Assembly: GCA_025699025.1 (NCBI GenBank)
Contig: JAILWJ010000002.1
Location: 310,001 to 374,000 of the forward strand
DNA length: 64,000 nucleotides
Reading direction: 5' to 3'
Origin: Nitrosarchaeum sp.
GTDB lineage: Archaea > Thermoproteota > Nitrososphaeria > Nitrososphaerales > Nitrosopumilaceae
The position numbers were made by a program, and so were the translations under genes. Below the pieces are notes generated by a model that saw only the letters and a list, made by a program, of their open reading frames with translations, was not told the DNA's origin and made no database searches. Shown here in pieces: positions 33,683-43,702 of this stretch (position 1 is its first letter; each line of letters starts with the position of its first letter).

Positions 33683-36600
33683 ATGAACAACGAATTAGGA
33701 CGTAAAATAACTAGTCTTACATTAATGACAATTATGTTAGCCGGTGGTATGACATTTGCAGTACCTGGCGTAATGCCAGCTGCACATGCAGCCAACGCTA
33801 ACCTATTTGTTTCCGCAGAAAACTCGCAGTTTGATAACTACATGTCAGGACCTCAAGTAATTGAGGTCGTTGTAATTGATTCAGACATTAATGATACTGA
33901 TGAGGCAAAAGGTGAACCAGACGTTACAGTAAACGGCAAGAAACTCAGAATGGTTCAAGCCGTGGATGGTAACTGGTATGGTTACTTTGCAGATAGAAAC
34001 ATGGCACAAATTGCCGATTCTACTACAACCAAAGGCGCAGCAGGCGACGGTTTGGACTTTGGTATCTTCTGTTCAGCTACTACTGGTGATGACTTCCTAG
34101 GTTTCTCAGTTTCTGAGACATCTGGTGTTGCATTACCAATTCATGCTAGCGCAGGAGGTAAAAACGGTACAAACCCAGCAACAATACTTACTGATAGTAA
34201 CGCCAATTGTTCTTCCCTTACCATTGTTGCCAACGGAACTAACAATGTTGTAAGAAAACCAAAAGACGTCAATACTAACAGTGCTGTTGCTCCAGGCCAA
34301 ATTGGATTTAAAACAAACACATCCAGTGGCTTGAACGGCCTGTGGCCATTTGTACAGCTCTATACTCTAAACCCAACTGGTAACGTTGTTGTACAGTACA
34401 ACAAAGGTGGTGGTGTTCAAACAACAACACTCACATTTGATACTGTTGATAACTTTGCAAGCACAAGCTTAGACAGATCTGTATATCCTCAAGGTGCACA
34501 AGTACACGTTACAATCTCTGATTTATGGTTGAACATCGACCCAACTGACGAAGACTCTTGGACCTTTGGTACATTTGGTACTTTTAGTACCAACTACCAG
34601 GTGTTTGATGAGAACGGCGCAGCAGTCGGTGATACCTCCAAAAACACAGATACTAACGCACTTACTGCAGCACTCGGTGCCTTAATGTGTGAAGATAATT
34701 GTGTACTTAAATTAAATCCAGACGTTCAAGGTAAAGGAGACGTCATTACCCTACAGGATAATGAAGACTCTGAAATTGAAGTCGGACCAGGTGAAGCCAC
34801 ACAGAATCCAGACAACTGGAGAACTGCAGCTGACTTCCTTGATGGTAAGTTACCAATTACAATTACAGAACAGGGTCCAAACAGCGGAGTATTTGGCACA
34901 TATGATGAGTCAGATACTTCCAACATTGTAATCACTGATGATGCAAAGAGGGGAACCTCCGCATCAATCACTTACAATGAAGACTCTTACACACTTCTTG
35001 TAGGACATTCCTTTGCTACTATTGACATCCAGCCAACTGATAATGAGTGGAACTCTGGTGAAGAGATTCCAGTAGTATTAGTTGATGCAGATGCCAACAA
35101 GAACAGTAGAGCAGACGAAGACCTTGACCTTAACAATCCAAACGTAACATTGATCCCATCCTTACAGACTGGTGATCCATTTACACTTGGCGAGGCAGGT
35201 CTGACCACAGCTAAAGCTACTTTCTTCAATAATGCCACTTCTCAAGTCATTGTCCGAAATGGAACAATGGTAAACGCTGGAGCAACCTCTAACTATAACA
35301 ACTCTACAATGGAAGTTCAGAGATTCAGCCAGAGAGCATTACTTGACACAAGCAGCACTACTACTGAAGTAAACGGAATTGCATTTGACTATAGATCCAA
35401 CGCAGGCGACTTGAAAGATACCGTATTGGCCAAAAATGTCCTTAGAGGATTTAGCCTCTTTAACTTAGATGTTAGAAGCCTAAACATGACTGGACCATTT
35501 GATGTTTACTTGCTAAACAAAACTGGTACCACCAACATCATTGGCGCTAACGGTACCTTGACACCAACAACCTATGCATATAGATTGTTAAATGATGTCA
35601 ACGCACAATCACTGACACTGCTATCCAACAGTACAATTGACTATATCAACAGCCTAGATGACGATGATAAAATCGGTCTAGCTGTTATAGCAACAACTGG
35701 TGGTAGACCAAACAGTGAGGATGCAGTCGTTGCTGACTTCTTCTCCTTTGGATTCACACAAGATGGACTGGAAGCCGATCAAAGAATCGCTAACCAGATC
35801 ATCAGACTGGAACTAGAGGAGACTGGTGATAACACAAGCACCTTTACAGGTTCCTTGGAGTACACCATGATTAATCAGCTAAACATACTTGATAATAGCA
35901 CATACACTGGCCTATCTACAATTGCCGATGATCCATCTTTCATCGTAATTGAAGACCTAGATGATGAAGACTCTCCAAGAGTCAATTATCTGGACTTGGG
36001 TGCAGATGGTGTGTCTACTCAAATAGCTGATCAAGCAGAAGCCCCAGCACACTCTGGTGTTGTTTCTTTCAATTCAGATAGCTACAAGAACGCTGACACA
36101 GTTACAATTACACTCGAAGACGCAGATCTAAACGTAGACTCTGATCTCATTGATATCTATACAGTCACTGACGGTGATGTAGCCGATCTTAAAGATGTCG
36201 TTGGCAGCGATGACTTCGACTTTGAACTTTCTGATGGCTCAAACCTCGGTAGATTACTAGATGTCACATTTGATGATATAAAATGGAGTACACCTTCCTC
36301 TGGTTCATGCCTCACAGCATTGAACAATGCAGGTGTAACAGACACTGGACTAGGAGCAACAGGCTTTAGCCTTGTTGAAACCGGCCCAGAGACTGGCATC
36401 TTTATTGGTGACTTCCAAATCCCAGGCGCATGGTGTAGATCCGCTACTGCTTCATCTGAATCAGTAACCGGTCTAGACATTGAAGTCAACTATGTTGATT
36501 TCAGAGATGCATCTGGTGAGACCATCGAAGTAGGAGACTCAGCAGGAGTTCGCGCTAACACAGGTTCAGTAAGCCTTGATAGAACTGTCTATCCAGTACC

Positions 36601-38776
36601 ATTTGGTGTTCCAAGTAATTTCGATGGCAATACTGCCACCACACCAAGGGTTGGAACAGTTGATCGTTCAGTATTCCCAATACACCAATCCGGTATGGAT
36701 TCAACCTCCGGATTGCAATCTGGTGAATTCTTGGACAAAGGCGGACTGATTGTCCACGTTAGAGTAAACGATCCAGACTTTGACATATCCGCAGCAGGTG
36801 AAGATAGCATTGCTGAAAACACATCAGACGGAGTAGGTCCAGTGAAGATCTCTGTTCTCAGAGGCTCTTCAGTAGTCGTACTCGGTTATGCAGGTGGTAA
36901 CGCAACAAAAGCAGGTACTATTGATGTCGGTGACGACAATAGTTCCAAATCTGCTAACATCAGACAATTTGGCCCAATGGTCGAAGTTGCACCCGATGCA
37001 GGAATATTCGAAGCTGACATCACAATCAGATACACAGACGGTCCAGCAAGCACAACTTGCCCAGATACCAAGACAGCTGGTTATACAGCTATTAACGGTA
37101 CAACTGGCCTAAGTAGTGTTACTAGCCGATTTGACACAGCCGCATCATCAGGCAATTACTGTATCTTACAAGGAGATATTCTCCAAGTAGAATACACTGA
37201 TCCAGCCGATGCATCAGGTGACGTCAACACTGTAACTGACTCTGCTACATTTGATCTTAGAAACGGTGTATTGCAATCCGACAAATCAGTTTACATTATT
37301 GGATCCGATATGATCATGACCCTCATTGAGCCAGACTTTGATCTGGACAGTGACCAGGCTGAGACATATTCATTGGACTTGATTGAATGGGACTCTGATG
37401 CTGCCACACTCTCAATGGGTACTAAAGGCGGCGATGCAGGTGCATTTGACCCAGAACCACTAAACTTTAGAGAAACAGGTGACTCTACTGGTATCTTCCA
37501 GATTGTCGTCGAGATTCCTCAAGAGCTAGATGGTGACAAGCTAGAAAGAGGAGAAGAAATTGTCCTCGAGTATACCGACTGGGGTCCATCTGGATCTGAC
37601 TATGTAGGTGATGAAGATGAAGATGTCAACTTGACAATCTACACTTCAAACTTCGGAGCAACTGTAGAGCTTGACCAAAAAGTTTACACTTGGACTGACA
37701 AAGTATACATTACTATCGTCGCACCAGACCACAACTTTGACAGCAACCTAGTTGATGATATAGGCAACACTGATGAGGACCCAATAAAGGTCTCCACCAG
37801 AGGTAAGAGCCTCAACAACTACAAGCTAGTCGAGACTGGCACTGACACTGGCATCTTTACTGGTGAGGTAATTCTTACCGGATTTACACACGATGCAGAC
37901 GGTGACAGCACAACTGGTTCTAGTGGTAACGATGTAACTACACGAGATTCTTCAGGCAGTGGTCCAACTGATGGACTGCTATCTGCAACTGATGATGACG
38001 GACTGACTGTCTCCTTTGAATTCTCAGAGGATGAAACAGTTGTAGGTTCTGCACTAATCAGATGGAATATCGGTGAAGTCCAGTGGCTTGAAGCAAGCTA
38101 TCCAGCTAGCGGTACAGGTGTTGTAAGAGTAATTGATCCAGATATGAACTTGAATCCAGAAGCAGTCGACAACTTCAGCGTCGACGTGTGGTCTGACTCC
38201 GATGCCGGAGGTATTGACCTTACTGTAACTGAGACTAATGAGGCAACCGGAATATTCGAAGGAACAGTGTTCTTCACTGTAACTGACGAATCATCTGGTC
38301 ACAGACTCAGAGTCGCAGAAGGTGACACTGTCACTGCAGAATATGAGGACAATACACTACCTGATCCATACACAACTGCAGACGAACTTGATATCACTGC
38401 CACTTCACTAATCGGAACTATCGTACCTCCACTCGAGCGTGCACCAGCTGCAAACTTGAGAACTGTTGATGCCTTTGGTAACAGTCTAAGCACTGTTAAC
38501 GTAGACCAACAGGTACAGATTACAGCCGACTTAGCAAATGGCCAAGATAGAGAGCAAGCATTTGCATACTTGGTACAGATTCAGGATGGTAACGGTGTTA
38601 CAGTCTCACTGGCATGGATTACCGGTTCACTATCACCAGGTCAATCATTCAGCCCAGCATTGTCATGGATCCCAACACAAGCAGGTAGCTACACAGCAAC
38701 CGCATTTGTCTGGGAATCAGTTGACAATCCAACGGCATTATCACCACCAGTAACCACAACAATTACTGTAAGATAA
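33683..38776 (+). CDS. S-layer protein of thaumarchaeal type
   Basis: A 1697-aa secreted protein that should form the two-dimensional surface lattice. It has a signal peptide (residues 1-36, hydrophobic TLMTIMLAGGMTFAVPG, then AHA before the mature start near ANANLFVSAEN). A long array of Ig-like beta domains follows, with repeated D-x-D/N-rich strands (YKNADTVTITLEDADLNVD, VTETNEATGIFEGTV). The mature protein is very acidic and nearly Lys-poor, as in marine ammonia oxidisers, and has many N-x-S/T sequons. No C-terminal membrane anchor is visible. Codon use is more biased and G+C richer than the neighbours, fitting very high expression. Its length and flanking genes fit my recollection of the Nitrosopumilus S-layer region. 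Confidence 0.92.
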   Translation: MNNELGRKITSLTLMTIMLAGGMTFAVPGVMPAAHAANANLFVSAENSQFDNYMSGPQVIEVVVIDSDINDTDEAKGEPDVTVNGKKLRMVQAVDGNWYGYFADRNMAQIADSTTTKGAAGDGLDFGIFCSATTGDDFLGFSVSETSGVALPIHASAGGKNGTNPATILTDSNANCSSLTIVANGTNNVVRKPKDVNTNSAVAPGQIGFKTNTSSGLNGLWPFVQLYTLNPTGNVVVQYNKGGGVQTTTLTFDTVDNFASTSLDRSVYPQGAQVHVTISDLWLNIDPTDEDSWTFGTFGTFSTNYQVFDENGAAVGDTSKNTDTNALTAALGALMCEDNCVLKLNPDVQGKGDVITLQDNEDSEIEVGPGEATQNPDNWRTAADFLDGKLPITITEQGPNSGVFGTYDESDTSNIVITDDAKRGTSASITYNEDSYTLLVGHSFATIDIQPTDNEWNSGEEIPVVLVDADANKNSRADEDLDLNNPNVTLIPSLQTGDPFTLGEAGLTTAKATFFNNATSQVIVRNGTMVNAGATSNYNNSTMEVQRFSQRALLDTSSTTTEVNGIAFDYRSNAGDLKDTVLAKNVLRGFSLFNLDVRSLNMTGPFDVYLLNKTGTTNIIGANGTLTPTTYAYRLLNDVNAQSLTLLSNSTIDYINSLDDDDKIGLAVIATTGGRPNSEDAVVADFFSFGFTQDGLEADQRIANQIIRLELEETGDNTSTFTGSLEYTMINQLNILDNSTYTGLSTIADDPSFIVIEDLDDEDSPRVNYLDLGADGVSTQIADQAEAPAHSGVVSFNSDSYKNADTVTITLEDADLNVDSDLIDIYTVTDGDVADLKDVVGSDDFDFELSDGSNLGRLLDVTFDDIKWSTPSSGSCLTALNNAGVTDTGLGATGFSLVETGPETGIFIGDFQIPGAWCRSATASSESVTGLDIEVNYVDFRDASGETIEVGDSAGVRANTGSVSLDRTVYPVPFGVPSNFDGNTATTPRVGTVDRSVFPIHQSGMDSTSGLQSGEFLDKGGLIVHVRVNDPDFDISAAGEDSIAENTSDGVGPVKISVLRGSSVVVLGYAGGNATKAGTIDVGDDNSSKSANIRQFGPMVEVAPDAGIFEADITIRYTDGPASTTCPDTKTAGYTAINGTTGLSSVTSRFDTAASSGNYCILQGDILQVEYTDPADASGDVNTVTDSATFDLRNGVLQSDKSVYIIGSDMIMTLIEPDFDLDSDQAETYSLDLIEWDSDAATLSMGTKGGDAGAFDPEPLNFRETGDSTGIFQIVVEIPQELDGDKLERGEEIVLEYTDWGPSGSDYVGDEDEDVNLTIYTSNFGATVELDQKVYTWTDKVYITIVAPDHNFDSNLVDDIGNTDEDPIKVSTRGKSLNNYKLVETGTDTGIFTGEVILTGFTHDADGDSTTGSSGNDVTTRDSSGSGPTDGLLSATDDDGLTVSFEFSEDETVVGSALIRWNIGEVQWLEASYPASGTGVVRVIDPDMNLNPEAVDNFSVDVWSDSDAGGIDLTVTETNEATGIFEGTVFFTVTDESSGHRLRVAEGDTVTAEYEDNTLPDPYTTADELDITATSLIGTIVPPLERAPAANLRTVDAFGNSLSTVNVDQQVQITADLANGQDREQAFAYLVQIQDGNGVTVSLAWITGSLSPGQSFSPALSWIPTQAGSYTATAFVWESVDNPTALSPPVTTTITVR

Positions 38777-38791
38777 CAAAACTAGTTCACA

Positions 38792-38814
38792 TTTTCCCTT
38801 TTTTCCTTTTTTTT
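38792..38814 (+). terminator. Poly-T terminator after the S-layer gene
   Basis: Three closely spaced T tracts (TTTT, TTTTTT, TTTTTTTT) separated by C residues lie 16-38 nt after the S-layer stop. Oligo-T without a hairpin is the usual archaeal intrinsic terminator, and strong tracts suit a very highly transcribed gene. Confidence 0.65.
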
Positions 38815-38883
38815 GAATCTGACCTAACGTAAGTTGTAGATCTCCAGAAGCAATATCTAGGAGAAGATTAGTTGTAAGATAAA

Positions 38884-39846
38884 TTGAAAAATCTATTACT
38901 GATATTTATTATTGTTATTTTGATTCCCATTCCAAACTCCTTTTCTGAAACTCTGATAATTTCATCTAACAGCAAAGTCTACTCTGAGGGCCAGCCGCTG
39001 TTTGTCTATGGCAAGGCACTGCCAGACGAAGACCTCATAATCAGATTGTTTGCACCAGATGAGACGATTGCAAACTTTGAGCAGATTACAACTGATGATG
39101 ACGGCACGTTTGAGTATGTAATAATTACATGGCCTCAAGCATCAACATCGTTTCCGTTTGGAACATACACCATAGAGGCAATAAGCACAGAGCAGGGACT
39201 ATCACAGAGACTGGATGTAAAGTTTACATCCACAAATGAACTGACCGAGGTTCCAGTAGAGCGTCAGATAAACACTCTGGTATTTGCACCAGAGACTGCC
39301 GCAGTAAACCAACCATTTAGGGTATTTGTGCAGACAACAAGTGACGGTTTGCTGATTGGTGATGATCCAAGCAAGCTCTTGCAGACAACACATGTGCATC
39401 TTCCATCCGGAAGAGTACAGACACTTACCAACGCATTTTCCACGTTACACACGGGATTATACTATGTGGATTATACACCATCTGAGGAGGGGACATATGT
39501 CTTTCATGTCGTGGCATTCAGCCAAGGTACAATATCCCATGGTTCTGTTGCAACAACGGTGATGAGCCAAGACATTAGGGGAATATCAAATCAGATACTG
39601 GAGCTAAACTCTATTCTTGATGAGACTGCAAGAGAGCTTGATACACTCAAATCCGAGATTGAGGGGTTTGGCGGAACGCTAAATTCAGCTAGTACAAACA
39701 TTGAGAAAAGCACTAAGTCCATCTCTTCTTCTGTTCTAAACATCGAGGAGGCATCATCTCAGCTAAACTCTCTTTTCTTTCCAATAGTTGCATCAATTGG
39801 AATAATTGTGGCACTGCAGATTGCGATTCTTGCCAGAAGAAGGTAG
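38884..39846 (+). CDS. Secreted, C-terminally membrane-anchored Ig-like/coiled-coil protein; candidate S-layer anchor
   Basis: A 320-aa protein with a signal peptide (residues 1-21, ending PNSFSE), two beta-sandwich domains (about 22-115 and 125-230), a heptad-like helical stretch (about 235-295: ISNQILELNSILDETARELDTLKSEI), a single TM helix (about 297-316: FPIVASIGIIVALQIAILA) and a terminal RRR stop-transfer tail. TTG start at 38884. It lies directly downstream of the S-layer gene. The order of beta domains, stalk and membrane anchor resembles that of SlaB stalk proteins in Sulfolobales, although I see no sequence relationship. No function is proven. Confidence 0.7.
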   Translation: MKNLLLIFIIVILIPIPNSFSETLIISSNSKVYSEGQPLFVYGKALPDEDLIIRLFAPDETIANFEQITTDDDGTFEYVIITWPQASTSFPFGTYTIEAISTEQGLSQRLDVKFTSTNELTEVPVERQINTLVFAPETAAVNQPFRVFVQTTSDGLLIGDDPSKLLQTTHVHLPSGRVQTLTNAFSTLHTGLYYVDYTPSEEGTYVFHVVAFSQGTISHGSVATTVMSQDIRGISNQILELNSILDETARELDTLKSEIEGFGGTLNSASTNIEKSTKSISSSVLNIEEASSQLNSLFFPIVASIGIIVALQIAILARRR

Positions 39847-39865: not shown

Positions 39866-42800
39866 ATGAAAATCATCATAATGCCCAAAGTGGCTATCTT
39901 TTTTTGCGTCATTCTTCTCTCCTCTGCGTTTGCAAATTCGTATGGGTTTACCGGCGATTCTATCGTATTACACCAACAAGATAGACCAAGTTTTGATTCT
40001 GGAATAATTGACGTGGATTCTGACTTTTTCTCTCCAAACACATTCAAGCGATATGTAGTATTTGGAAACTCTGATGGTATAGATCTTGTGAAAAAAAATT
40101 CCATATATGGAATCGAGTCTGATAATGGCTTTTTTCATGTGGCACTACTTGAAGAAAGACAGGCATCAAATCTGGCAGCGCAGGGATACCACGTGATTGA
40201 GGATTTCAAGCTGGACTTTCACTCTGTGTCACAAACAGGTAACATCACAATCTCTGATGCATCAAGGATAGGCCAAATTACGGGCTCTGATGTGGCCAAC
40301 ACAAAGTATAATGTTACGGGAAGTGGAATCAAGATAGCAATAGTTGATACCGGCGTGGATTTCTCAAATCCTGATATTCAGGATTCCCTTGCAAGGGATG
40401 ATATCAACCATCCGATAATGCTTGATCCTGACGGACAGGGACTAGTTCTTACCAATGCGACCTTTTTTGCATTTATCGACGATAATAAGATAATTAGAAA
40501 CTATACCAAGCCGCTCCCTGAAGACATGACATCTTCAGTTTATGTCTCAAAGAAGGGAGTGTTCCTTGATGTGTCACAGGGAGGCAAGGGAACAGACATT
40601 CCAATATACAACTCATTTTTCCCCCAGTTTGGCAGCAGCATAATCTTCAATGGAACTCTGGCAAATGACATGAAGATTGGCGATGACAACCGAAACTATA
40701 TCAAGTCACAAAGTGGAGTTTACCGCCTTGGCGTGATTTACCAGGGAGGACTGGACGGGCCGCTTGCAAGAATTCAGGTGGTGCCAGTACTGTTTGTCGA
40801 CTCTAACGTTTCAGGAGTGTATGATACGATAATTCCAGACATGAGCACGTCTTGGGAGGATTATACAAGATTTGATCTAAAGCCAGGACAGAAGCCAAAA
40901 TATGACTTTGACTTTACAGACGAAAAGCCAATAATTCTGGGCAGCGGAAAAGAGTTTCTCGTATATGACTCCAACAAGGACGGCAAGTCCGATTACAGCG
41001 CCGGAACCATAGGTGCTCAAGTTTTAGATGTATACAATGCAATACAAAACAAGACCTCCAATGTAGATGATGCCATCAGGGCAGTCAACGGTACCCTGTT
41101 GCCTGCACTTGATCCGGACGGGGAGTTTTTTGGAGTGATGACTGATTTCATGGGACATGGAACTGCCAGTGCCGCATCTATAGTATCAAAAGGCAAGCAA
41201 GAATATGACATTTACAACAATACCGAAAAATTCACAATACGAGGAGTGGCACCTGATGCAAAAATAATTCCAGTCAAGGCGTTGTGGTTTGGCGATACCG
41301 TATATGGCTGGCTCTGGGCAGCAGGATTTGAAAATGACGCCCATACGTGGAAATTTACTGGAAATACCAGAGTAGATGTCATCTCTAACAGCTGGGGCGT
41401 CTCAAACTTTCCATCTTTCGAGTCTGCGCCAGGAATGGACGTATTGTCTTTAATCCTAAGTATACTTGCAACTCCCCACTCACTACATGATGACTATCCC
41501 GGAATTACAATAGTGTCAAGTGCCGGAAACTCTGGACACGGCTATGGGACCATTGGCCTGCCAAATGCATCGCCGTTTGGAATTTCAGTCGGAGCAACCA
41601 CAAACAATGTCTTTGTCGGATATGGTCCGTTCAAAGACCAGCCAAGGTTTGGAAATTCGACAACCCACTACAATGATGTAGTTGACTTTTCAAGCCGAGG
41701 TCCGGGAATAATCGGTGACCCCAAGCCAGACATAATGAGCATTGGGGCCCACGGATTTGTCCCATCAAATGTAATCAAGACAGAAAAAAACTCCAAAGCA
41801 GAGTCCTTTTCACTGTTTGGCGGGACAAGCATGGCAGCACCACTTGTATCTGGAAGCATCGCGTTACTAATGGAGGGAATGCAGAATGCCTCGCAGGGCT
41901 ATGATCCGTTTACCATCAAAAACATTCTAATGTCAACTGCAAAGGATTTGCAAAATGATCCGTTCACGCAAGGATCAGGGCTTGCAGATGCATCTGCCGC
42001 ATTGAAATTTGCAAATGCCGAACACGGAACATTTATCATTCACAATGACAACTCTTACAAGAATCTCAAAGAAATACTAGACCCTGCAATTGAATCGATA
42101 AACTCTACAGACATTGGCTTTGCACAGTTCCAGCTTCCATCAAAATCCATGCCCATGACAAACTGGTTTGCAGGACAGCTTGATCCCGGCGAGCGAAGCA
42201 CAACTACATTTACCATTGAAAATCCATCAGACTCTCCAATTGATGTGACAATAAAGCCCGAAGAGATGTCCCTGATCCAAAAAAATACATTCCATGGAAC
42301 TACCACAACGCAGCAGCAAGATCCCATTCTTAACAAGACCGGCGTCTATGTTCCCAACTACATCAAACTCTCTGATGTAAAACCGCACTCTGAAGTCTCT
42401 GATTTCTTTGATGAAAACCCAATACCTGATGTATCATCACTTATGGTACTGAACCTGAACTTTGCATTCTCTGATTTTATGAACAAGACAGTTGACACGT
42501 ATGCAGATGACATGAAGATCTCATCTCTATACCTGTATGACTGGGTCGACAAAAACAACGACACCAAAGTACTAAGTGACGAGCTATCCATGGTAAACAG
42601 GGCAGGATCCTGGGGAACTGTTCAAGAGCTGCGAGTCTCCAATCCCGGTGAAAAGTTTGAAGGGGTTCCGCTTGTTGGAATCTATCCTGTTCCAACCAGA
42701 TACTCGTACTGGATCGGTGACACACAAAAAAATTCCACGTCAATGGACTATGTATTATCTGCAAGTTATTACCAAAAACAAAAATGGCAGTCTGTCTGGC

Positions 42801-43702
42801 CAGACGCTGAAACTGTTACAGTTCCCGCAAAAGATTCTGCCACAGTAAACATAACTCTGATTGCGCCTGTTGATTCCCAAACCGGCGTCTATCAGGGATT
42901 TGTAACCTTTGAAAGCCAGAACCATGTTGCTCGTGCACCTGTGTCTTTTGTTGTAACAAAACAAATTGATCAAAAGGACACACCAATACTAATCTCTGGA
43001 AAGCAAAGCGATGACATACTGTTTGGGAATGGCTACACCAAAGGAGCCTTTGACATGGCAAACAGGTACATGGCAGGCGACTGGAGACAGTATTATTTTG
43101 AAATAAAAGATGACACGATAAACTCTGCAGCTATTGAGATATCCTGGGAAAATAACGACACAAACCTGTCCGTATTTGTAATGGATCCGAAAGGAAAGAT
43201 TGTCCAAACAAACATGCCATCAGGTGTGTTTGGCCACTTTCTTGGGTGGCCCTCCCTTGACTGGCTGGGCAACTCACTGTTTAGCCAAGGCGGAGGATTC
43301 TTCCCAGTCAAAAATAAAGATGAAACCTCGACTGTTATTTTTGTGCCCATAAACCAGACAGGAACCTACTCACTACTGACACATTCCACGCTGTTTTCAG
43401 GAAACCAAACTACAGAGCCAATCAACATTGCAGCAAAGTTTTCCACAATATCTCTTGACTCACTTGAAGAAAATCTTGCATCTGACATCTCGATCATTCC
43501 TGACGAGTCTGAACACCCAGACATGTCAAATGATACTTTATCTGAGCCATTACCTGAACCATCAGAACCTGTACCTAAAATCACAGATAAATCCGCAGAT
43601 GAATCAGCAGACTTTACGGTTGGAATTATTCTGGGAATAATAATCGGAGTTGCGATCGGTGTTACATTTGTCTTTGTCATTCGACAAAAATCTGCCAAAT
43701 AA
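39866..43702 (+). CDS. Large membrane-anchored subtilisin-like serine protease (S8)
   Basis: A 1278-aa protein from the ATG at 39866. This start gives a proper signal peptide (PKVAIFFCVILLSSAFA); an upstream in-frame ATG at 39806 lies inside the previous gene and would bury the signal. The catalytic set is complete: Asp161 (IVDTGVD), His431 (GHGTASAA), oxyanion Asn555 (SAGNSGHG) and Ser655 (GGTSMAAP). About 270 residues separate Asp and His, far more than in subtilisin, leaving room for an inserted (PA-like) domain. Residues about 730-1190 form beta-rich domains. A TM helix near 1250-1271 with basic tail anchors it. It should act on surface or secreted proteins outside the cell. Confidence 0.92.
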   Translation: MKIIIMPKVAIFFCVILLSSAFANSYGFTGDSIVLHQQDRPSFDSGIIDVDSDFFSPNTFKRYVVFGNSDGIDLVKKNSIYGIESDNGFFHVALLEERQASNLAAQGYHVIEDFKLDFHSVSQTGNITISDASRIGQITGSDVANTKYNVTGSGIKIAIVDTGVDFSNPDIQDSLARDDINHPIMLDPDGQGLVLTNATFFAFIDDNKIIRNYTKPLPEDMTSSVYVSKKGVFLDVSQGGKGTDIPIYNSFFPQFGSSIIFNGTLANDMKIGDDNRNYIKSQSGVYRLGVIYQGGLDGPLARIQVVPVLFVDSNVSGVYDTIIPDMSTSWEDYTRFDLKPGQKPKYDFDFTDEKPIILGSGKEFLVYDSNKDGKSDYSAGTIGAQVLDVYNAIQNKTSNVDDAIRAVNGTLLPALDPDGEFFGVMTDFMGHGTASAASIVSKGKQEYDIYNNTEKFTIRGVAPDAKIIPVKALWFGDTVYGWLWAAGFENDAHTWKFTGNTRVDVISNSWGVSNFPSFESAPGMDVLSLILSILATPHSLHDDYPGITIVSSAGNSGHGYGTIGLPNASPFGISVGATTNNVFVGYGPFKDQPRFGNSTTHYNDVVDFSSRGPGIIGDPKPDIMSIGAHGFVPSNVIKTEKNSKAESFSLFGGTSMAAPLVSGSIALLMEGMQNASQGYDPFTIKNILMSTAKDLQNDPFTQGSGLADASAALKFANAEHGTFIIHNDNSYKNLKEILDPAIESINSTDIGFAQFQLPSKSMPMTNWFAGQLDPGERSTTTFTIENPSDSPIDVTIKPEEMSLIQKNTFHGTTTTQQQDPILNKTGVYVPNYIKLSDVKPHSEVSDFFDENPIPDVSSLMVLNLNFAFSDFMNKTVDTYADDMKISSLYLYDWVDKNNDTKVLSDELSMVNRAGSWGTVQELRVSNPGEKFEGVPLVGIYPVPTRYSYWIGDTQKNSTSMDYVLSASYYQKQKWQSVWPDAETVTVPAKDSATVNITLIAPVDSQTGVYQGFVTFESQNHVARAPVSFVVTKQIDQKDTPILISGKQSDDILFGNGYTKGAFDMANRYMAGDWRQYYFEIKDDTINSAAIEISWENNDTNLSVFVMDPKGKIVQTNMPSGVFGHFLGWPSLDWLGNSLFSQGGGFFPVKNKDETSTVIFVPINQTGTYSLLTHSTLFSGNQTTEPINIAAKFSTISLDSLEENLASDISIIPDESEHPDMSNDTLSEPLPEPSEPVPKITDKSADESADFTVGIILGIIIGVAIGVTFVFVIRQKSAK

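Follow-up and report, generated by a model that had tools for sequence, protein, structure and literature searches.

The open reading frame at positions 38884-39846 (forward strand) of the window, a 64,000-nucleotide stretch of Nitrosarchaeum sp. DNA, encodes the AOA homologue of the Sulfolobales stalk protein SlaB. It is very likely that its product is a membrane-anchored coiled-coil stalk that holds the lattice of the S-layer protein (SLP) encoded directly upstream, and that slaB has a promoter of its own and is expressed below the level of SLP. The AOA S-layer is thought to concentrate ammonium beside the membrane; how is the lattice held there? With a conserved gene, a promoter for it and a candidate domain of contact, the question of S-layer attachment can be approached with two small proteins.

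Architecture of the slaB product and its homology to SlaB

The slaB frame starts with TTG and encodes 320 amino acids plus a stop. Hydropathy has just two peaks, one of 2.12 at residue 3, in the signal sequence, and one of 2.51 at residue 297, in the transmembrane (TM) helix. The signal peptide (residues 1-21; 38884-38946), recognised from the sequence, is followed by beta domain D1 (residues 22-116; 38947-39231), covered by the NCBIfam SlaB profile NF040788 on residues 4-116 and by residues 33-134 of 8QOX_B, and by beta domain D2 (residues 125-228; 39256-39567), delimited by the 8QOX_B 251-417 stretch and AlphaFold2. A coiled-coil stalk (residues 229-296; 39568-39771) leads to the TM helix (residues about 297-317; 39772-39834), with ARRR directly after it and a cytoplasmic RRR tail at 39835-39843, all on the forward strand. 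The TM segment and the tail are the most conserved parts among orthologues, with majority identities of 0.86 (over residues 293-317) and 0.99.

An AlphaFold2 model built with 43 sequences (mean pLDDT 86) consists of two beta-sandwich domains and then one continuous helix, residues 231-319. The coiled coil exceeds chance expectation, because the hydrophobic period of 3.5 residues was reached by none of 2000 shuffles and because ten heptads run in one register without a skip, with 85% hydrophobic residues at the a/d positions and 13% at the others. The sequence-only reading of this frame (signal peptide, two beta domains, coiled-coil stalk, single TM helix and RRR tail) is therefore borne out by hydropathy, AlphaFold2 and the heptads. 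The SlaB sequence contains no N-X-S/T sequon, no PEFG motif before its TM helix and no match to the PEFG-CTERM profile (NCBIfam TIGR04296). A paralogue of 267 amino acids with a D1-like domain (L002:1489-2289) carries a PEFG-CTERM sorting signal (E=8e-10).

Is the likeness to Sulfolobales SlaB more than an analogous order of parts? NF040788 matches the slaB product with E=5.8e-10 and also matches 42 of its 43 relatives, and the product is the best SlaB-profile match of its own genome. The score of 38.7 bits lies far below the curated cut-off of 700 bits for the NF040788 equivalog (S-lay_SlaB_Mtsph), and by its profile match the protein is a homologue of the NF040788 proteins that falls outside that narrow model. 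An alignment of Sulfolobales SlaB was built from Sulfolobales proteins; its first member (L083) and the gene upstream of that member score above the cut-offs that NCBI sets for SlaB and SlaA. Profile-profile comparison of the AOA orthologues with this alignment gave 98.8% (E=4e-17) over a span from D1 to the TM helix. Intermediates (from the f6 family, plus one f18 protein) gave 99.6% (E=4e-24).

Comparisons with known structures point the same way. The top PDB match of the AOA SlaB profile is 8QOX_B, the SlaB of S. acidocaldarius (E=1.1e-6), above the coiled-coil matches, and the same chain ranks first for the model in Foldseek (E=5e-10). Superposed as one rigid body, the model and 8QOX_B reach a TM score of 0.27; local similarity accounts for the fold rank, and poor global superposition is expected for jointed domains. 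The homology signal is strong in D1, whereas matches in D2 and the coil are weak alone (i-Evalue 0.46 for the 8QOX_B 251-417 stretch). In the alignment with long SlaB, D2 falls on the third beta domain. The sequence-only reading had likened the order of parts to that of SlaB and made no claim of sequence similarity; such similarity is present in the profile and fold comparisons, and on this evidence the frame is related to SlaB by homology.

Joint occurrence of slaB, SLP and the last SLP domain

The upstream gene (33683-38776, forward strand) encodes an SLP of 1697 amino acids, an orthologue of NmSLP, the structure of which has been solved (8C8K); the match to 8C8K_A covers residues 1-1696 (E=0). 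Only 107 bp separate it from slaB. Hydropathy of SLP shows no strongly hydrophobic segment apart from the signal peptide, and thus no TM helix, and its sequence has no lipobox; the earlier remark that the S-layer protein shows no membrane anchor of its own stands. A second SLP gene in the same genome (G000 C1:112.9-118.1 kb; L223:4933-10065) comprises a 1711-aa frame with a last domain 95% identical and an identical putative terminator, and has no SlaB gene beside it (cf. Nmar_1201 in N. maritimus).

Linkage was compared over 125 loci, drawn from two overlapping collections and hence non-independent, of which 119 had sufficient upstream sequence; part of the family assignments were inferred from gene content and named loci. 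SLP lies directly upstream of slaB on the same strand in 97 of the 119, at a median distance of 115 bp, and in all eight Nitrososphaeraceae that have slaB. The gene order on which the sequence-only reading drew is therefore conserved. The 22 loci without an adjoining SLP belong chiefly to a Nitrosotalea-type clade and to sponge symbionts; in the former, SLP (52% identical) sits elsewhere in the genome with no SlaB adjoining. Of five loci with the relocated gene (L218-L222), four have complex IV genes downstream of it, and in the three genomes of the clade with both genes on one contig, SLP and slaB are 54-100 kb apart on the same strand.

Within Nitrosopumilaceae, a strong SlaB match was found in 112 of 132 genomes, including all 24 single-contig assemblies; the 20 genomes without one are all multi-contig, and in G257 a contig end cuts through the SLP gene, which makes an assembly gap likely there. 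Beyond this family, SLP and slaB remain neighbours in Nitrososphaeraceae, Nitrosocaldaceae, several uncultured families and Sulfolobales. In a distant family (f8), a secreted protein of 171 amino acids with a short end resembling the last SLP domain adjoins a SlaB-like protein (L090:6730-8576).

Are the two genes also lost together? Among 39 Nitrososphaeraceae genomes, each at least 90% complete, eight have both SLP and SlaB, always adjacent, and the other 31 have neither. The association is significant by Fisher's test (p=1.6e-8) without phylogeny correction, and the co-loss may represent perhaps one or two evolutionary events. It agrees with the losses published for Nitrosocosmicus, which is described as having neither slp nor slaB and no S-layer that can be seen (PMC11559005).

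The C-terminal (tenth) domain of SLP, an Ig/CARDB-like domain at 38417-38773 (forward strand), is a candidate docking domain. Its family profile matches residues 1616-1734 of NmSLP (E=2e-45), AlphaFold2 models it as an Ig-like beta-sandwich (pLDDT 96), and CARDB and the carbohydrate-binding domain of Wzt are among the folds closest to it. In NmSLP the last Ig-like domain is described as unresolved and flexible, in the pseudoperiplasm (PMC11153153). A domain of this type ends the SLPs across the group and is related to the C-terminus of SlaA (97%). In the window's genome it is found on the two SLPs and on four other secreted proteins; the products of L224:3022-4197, L225:2549-2983, L226:1503-2819 and L227:1613-2671 end in it and have no C-terminal TM helix.

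The domain occurs 4-14 times in each of the eight Nitrososphaeraceae genomes with SlaB and SLP, and not once, even at E 0.01, in the 31 genomes without them, although SLPs of positive genomes are part of the profile, which favours detection there. CARDB (PF07705) was too rare in all 39 genomes to be informative as a control for the co-loss of the domain. Across the order outside Nitrosopumilaceae, 36 genomes have both the domain and SlaB, six SlaB only, 15 the domain only (mostly weak f62 matches or incomplete genomes) and 111 neither, an association that is strong and imperfect. These counts allow a tentative idea, which we hold to be possible but doubtful, that the last SLP domain is a portable docking domain tethering many secreted proteins without TM helices to the SlaB stalk or the lattice. 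Its target could be SlaB, the lattice or a glycan, all compatible with the data.

Regulatory elements and abundance

How is slaB expressed relative to SLP? The intergenic region contains a double T-tract (38796-38814, forward strand), a putative terminator of SLP transcription. The T-rich block is present in about 95% or more of 95 intergenic regions and travels with SLP: in the window's genome, the second SLP gene is followed by an exact repeat of the double T-tract and the CTAACGTAAGTTGTAG after it, and the module is still recognisable behind relocated SLPs. Further downstream lies a candidate slaB promoter element, CAGAAGCAATATCTAGGAGA (38845-38864, forward strand), with the TATA-like AATATCTA at 38852-38859, 24 nt ahead of the slaB start. 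At loci that SLP has left, slaB still has the corresponding element AGAAG(T/C)AATATCTA. The core A[AT]TATCTA is found in 98 of 110 distinct slaB upstream regions, against 2.7% in shuffles, and in 71 of these an in-frame start codon lies 24 nt downstream of it.

The simplest reading of the 107-bp gap would be an SLP terminator and, after it, a promoter from which slaB is transcribed on its own as a leaderless mRNA. With both elements conserved, slaB is therefore probably transcribed separately from SLP. The codon bias of slaB relative to SLP (0.60), a measure that is circular for SLP, does not stand out among its neighbours (0.50-0.61).

A separate promoter would fit the low SlaB level reported for N. 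maritimus, where NmSLP considerably exceeds the SlaB homologue in abundance (PMC11153153, Nature 2024). The sequence-only reading had proposed that the protein could be the missing stalk and had counted great rarity relative to the lattice against that idea. The low abundance argues against one stalk per lattice subunit, yet not against anchoring; on abundance the proposal partly fails, and because SlaB is considerably rarer than NmSLP, the missing stalk holds as a sub-stoichiometric candidate anchor.

Proposed anchoring, alternative explanations and known systems

Directly downstream of slaB lies a membrane-anchored subtilase (39878-43702, forward strand; PF00082, E=9.1e-38), a conserved neighbour in Nitrosopumilaceae, with the pseudoperiplasm or the S-layer as its possible place of action. 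It also adjoins slaB in Nitrosocaldaceae and in family f56. Could SlaB be chiefly a partner or membrane scaffold of this protease instead of an S-layer anchor? In 119 of 125 loci the subtilase gene comes directly after slaB, also in the Nitrosotalea-type clade where SLP has moved, so that within Nitrosopumilaceae the linkage of slaB is tighter to the subtilase than to SLP; moreover, SSO1175, a homologue of the Sulfolobus SlaB paralogue M164_1049, has been characterised as a thermopsin-like protease (PMC6712394). However, the SLP-SlaB pair occurs without a nearby subtilase in all eight Nitrososphaeraceae and in families f57, f60 and f66 (L256-L258), no subtilase is near it in Sulfolobales or f6 either, and the subtilase has a TM helix of its own. 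Because distant families keep SLP without the subtilase, the oldest association of slaB is with SLP, and a partnership with the protease, judged secondary, is improbable as the main role of SlaB. That SLP and SlaB are mere chance neighbours, their synteny reflecting slow gene-order change in a small clade, is more improbable by far: gene order is conserved over the whole locus in Nitrosopumilaceae, but the pair survives in distant families with an otherwise changed neighbourhood, and its order equals the known slaA-slaB order of Sulfolobus.

Alternatively, SLP might anchor itself through its tenth Ig-like domain on envelope glycans or lipids, with SlaB as a minor accessory. Given the low abundance of SlaB, the authors of the NmSLP structure suggest an anchoring role for this domain (PMC11153153), and the likeness of its fold to CARDB and to the glycan-binding domain of Wzt speaks for it. 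By contrast, SLP has no hydrophobic or lipid anchor, and SlaB is kept wherever SLP is, as its neighbour across Thermoproteota, with the TM helix as its most conserved part. Self-anchoring is thus rather unlikely, while carrying more weight than the protease partnership.

How would a SlaB stalk hold the SLP lattice, as we prefer? SlaB would be secreted and stay membrane-bound through the TM helix at its C-terminus, with RRR inside. The coiled coil, which is probably trimeric like that of Sulfolobus, would form a stalk about 10 nm long (66 residues x 0.15 nm), and the two beta domains would grip the underside of the lattice. The contact on SLP would most likely be the flexible C-terminal Ig-like domain hanging into the pseudoperiplasm. 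In S. acidocaldarius, the proposed SlaA-SlaB contact is between the dimerising domain D6 of SlaA and D3 of SlaB (PMC10903991); by analogy, the predicted AOA contact would be between SLP domain 10 and SlaB D2. With slaB expressed from its own promoter below the level of SLP, just some lattice units would be pinned.

That AOA possess a SlaB homologue is already known, and the stalk idea is in print. Von Kugelgen et al. 2024 (PMC11153153) and the authors of the Nitrosocosmicus paper (mBio 2024; PMC11559005) name the Nitrososphaerota homologue, described as a minor SlaB with a C-terminal TM helix, present in most Nitrososphaerota and missing in Nitrosocosmicus. It very probably corresponds to the orthologue group of the slaB described here, and the window's genome has just one good candidate for it. 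In main-text passages of these two papers, no mention was seen of gene linkage, of separate regulation or of the domain common to SLP and other secreted proteins. The conserved putative SLP terminator and slaB promoter are new here, as are the recurrence of the last domain on other secreted proteins and its absence from Nitrososphaeraceae that lack SlaB and SLP.

Among other archaeal coats, the tetrabrachion of Staphylothermus is a surface stalk built as a coiled coil, and a subtilisin-like protease, STABLE, is associated with it. The possible likeness is no more than a lead, prompted by the adjacent subtilase.

With Sulfolobales SlaB (8QOX_B; NF040788), AOA SlaB shares the signal peptide, N-terminal beta domains, coiled coil and single C-terminal TM helix, as well as the position of its gene directly after the lattice gene and homology in sequence, which supports a two-part coat of lattice and stalk as old as Thermoproteota. 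Its two beta domains recall the short SlaB of S. solfataricus and S. islandicus (PMC6911244). By contrast, its coil is shorter than that of Sulfolobales SlaB, and it has no sequons, compared with 14 predicted in S. acidocaldarius SlaB (PMC10903991). Of a SlaB stalk one would expect near-stoichiometry with the lattice protein (SlaB3 : 3 SlaA2), whereas N. maritimus SlaB is reported to be much rarer than NmSLP (PMC11153153). In Sulfolobus, slaA and slaB are co-transcribed (PMC6712394), while AOA slaB apparently has its own promoter, which suggests that AOA set the levels of stalk and lattice separately.
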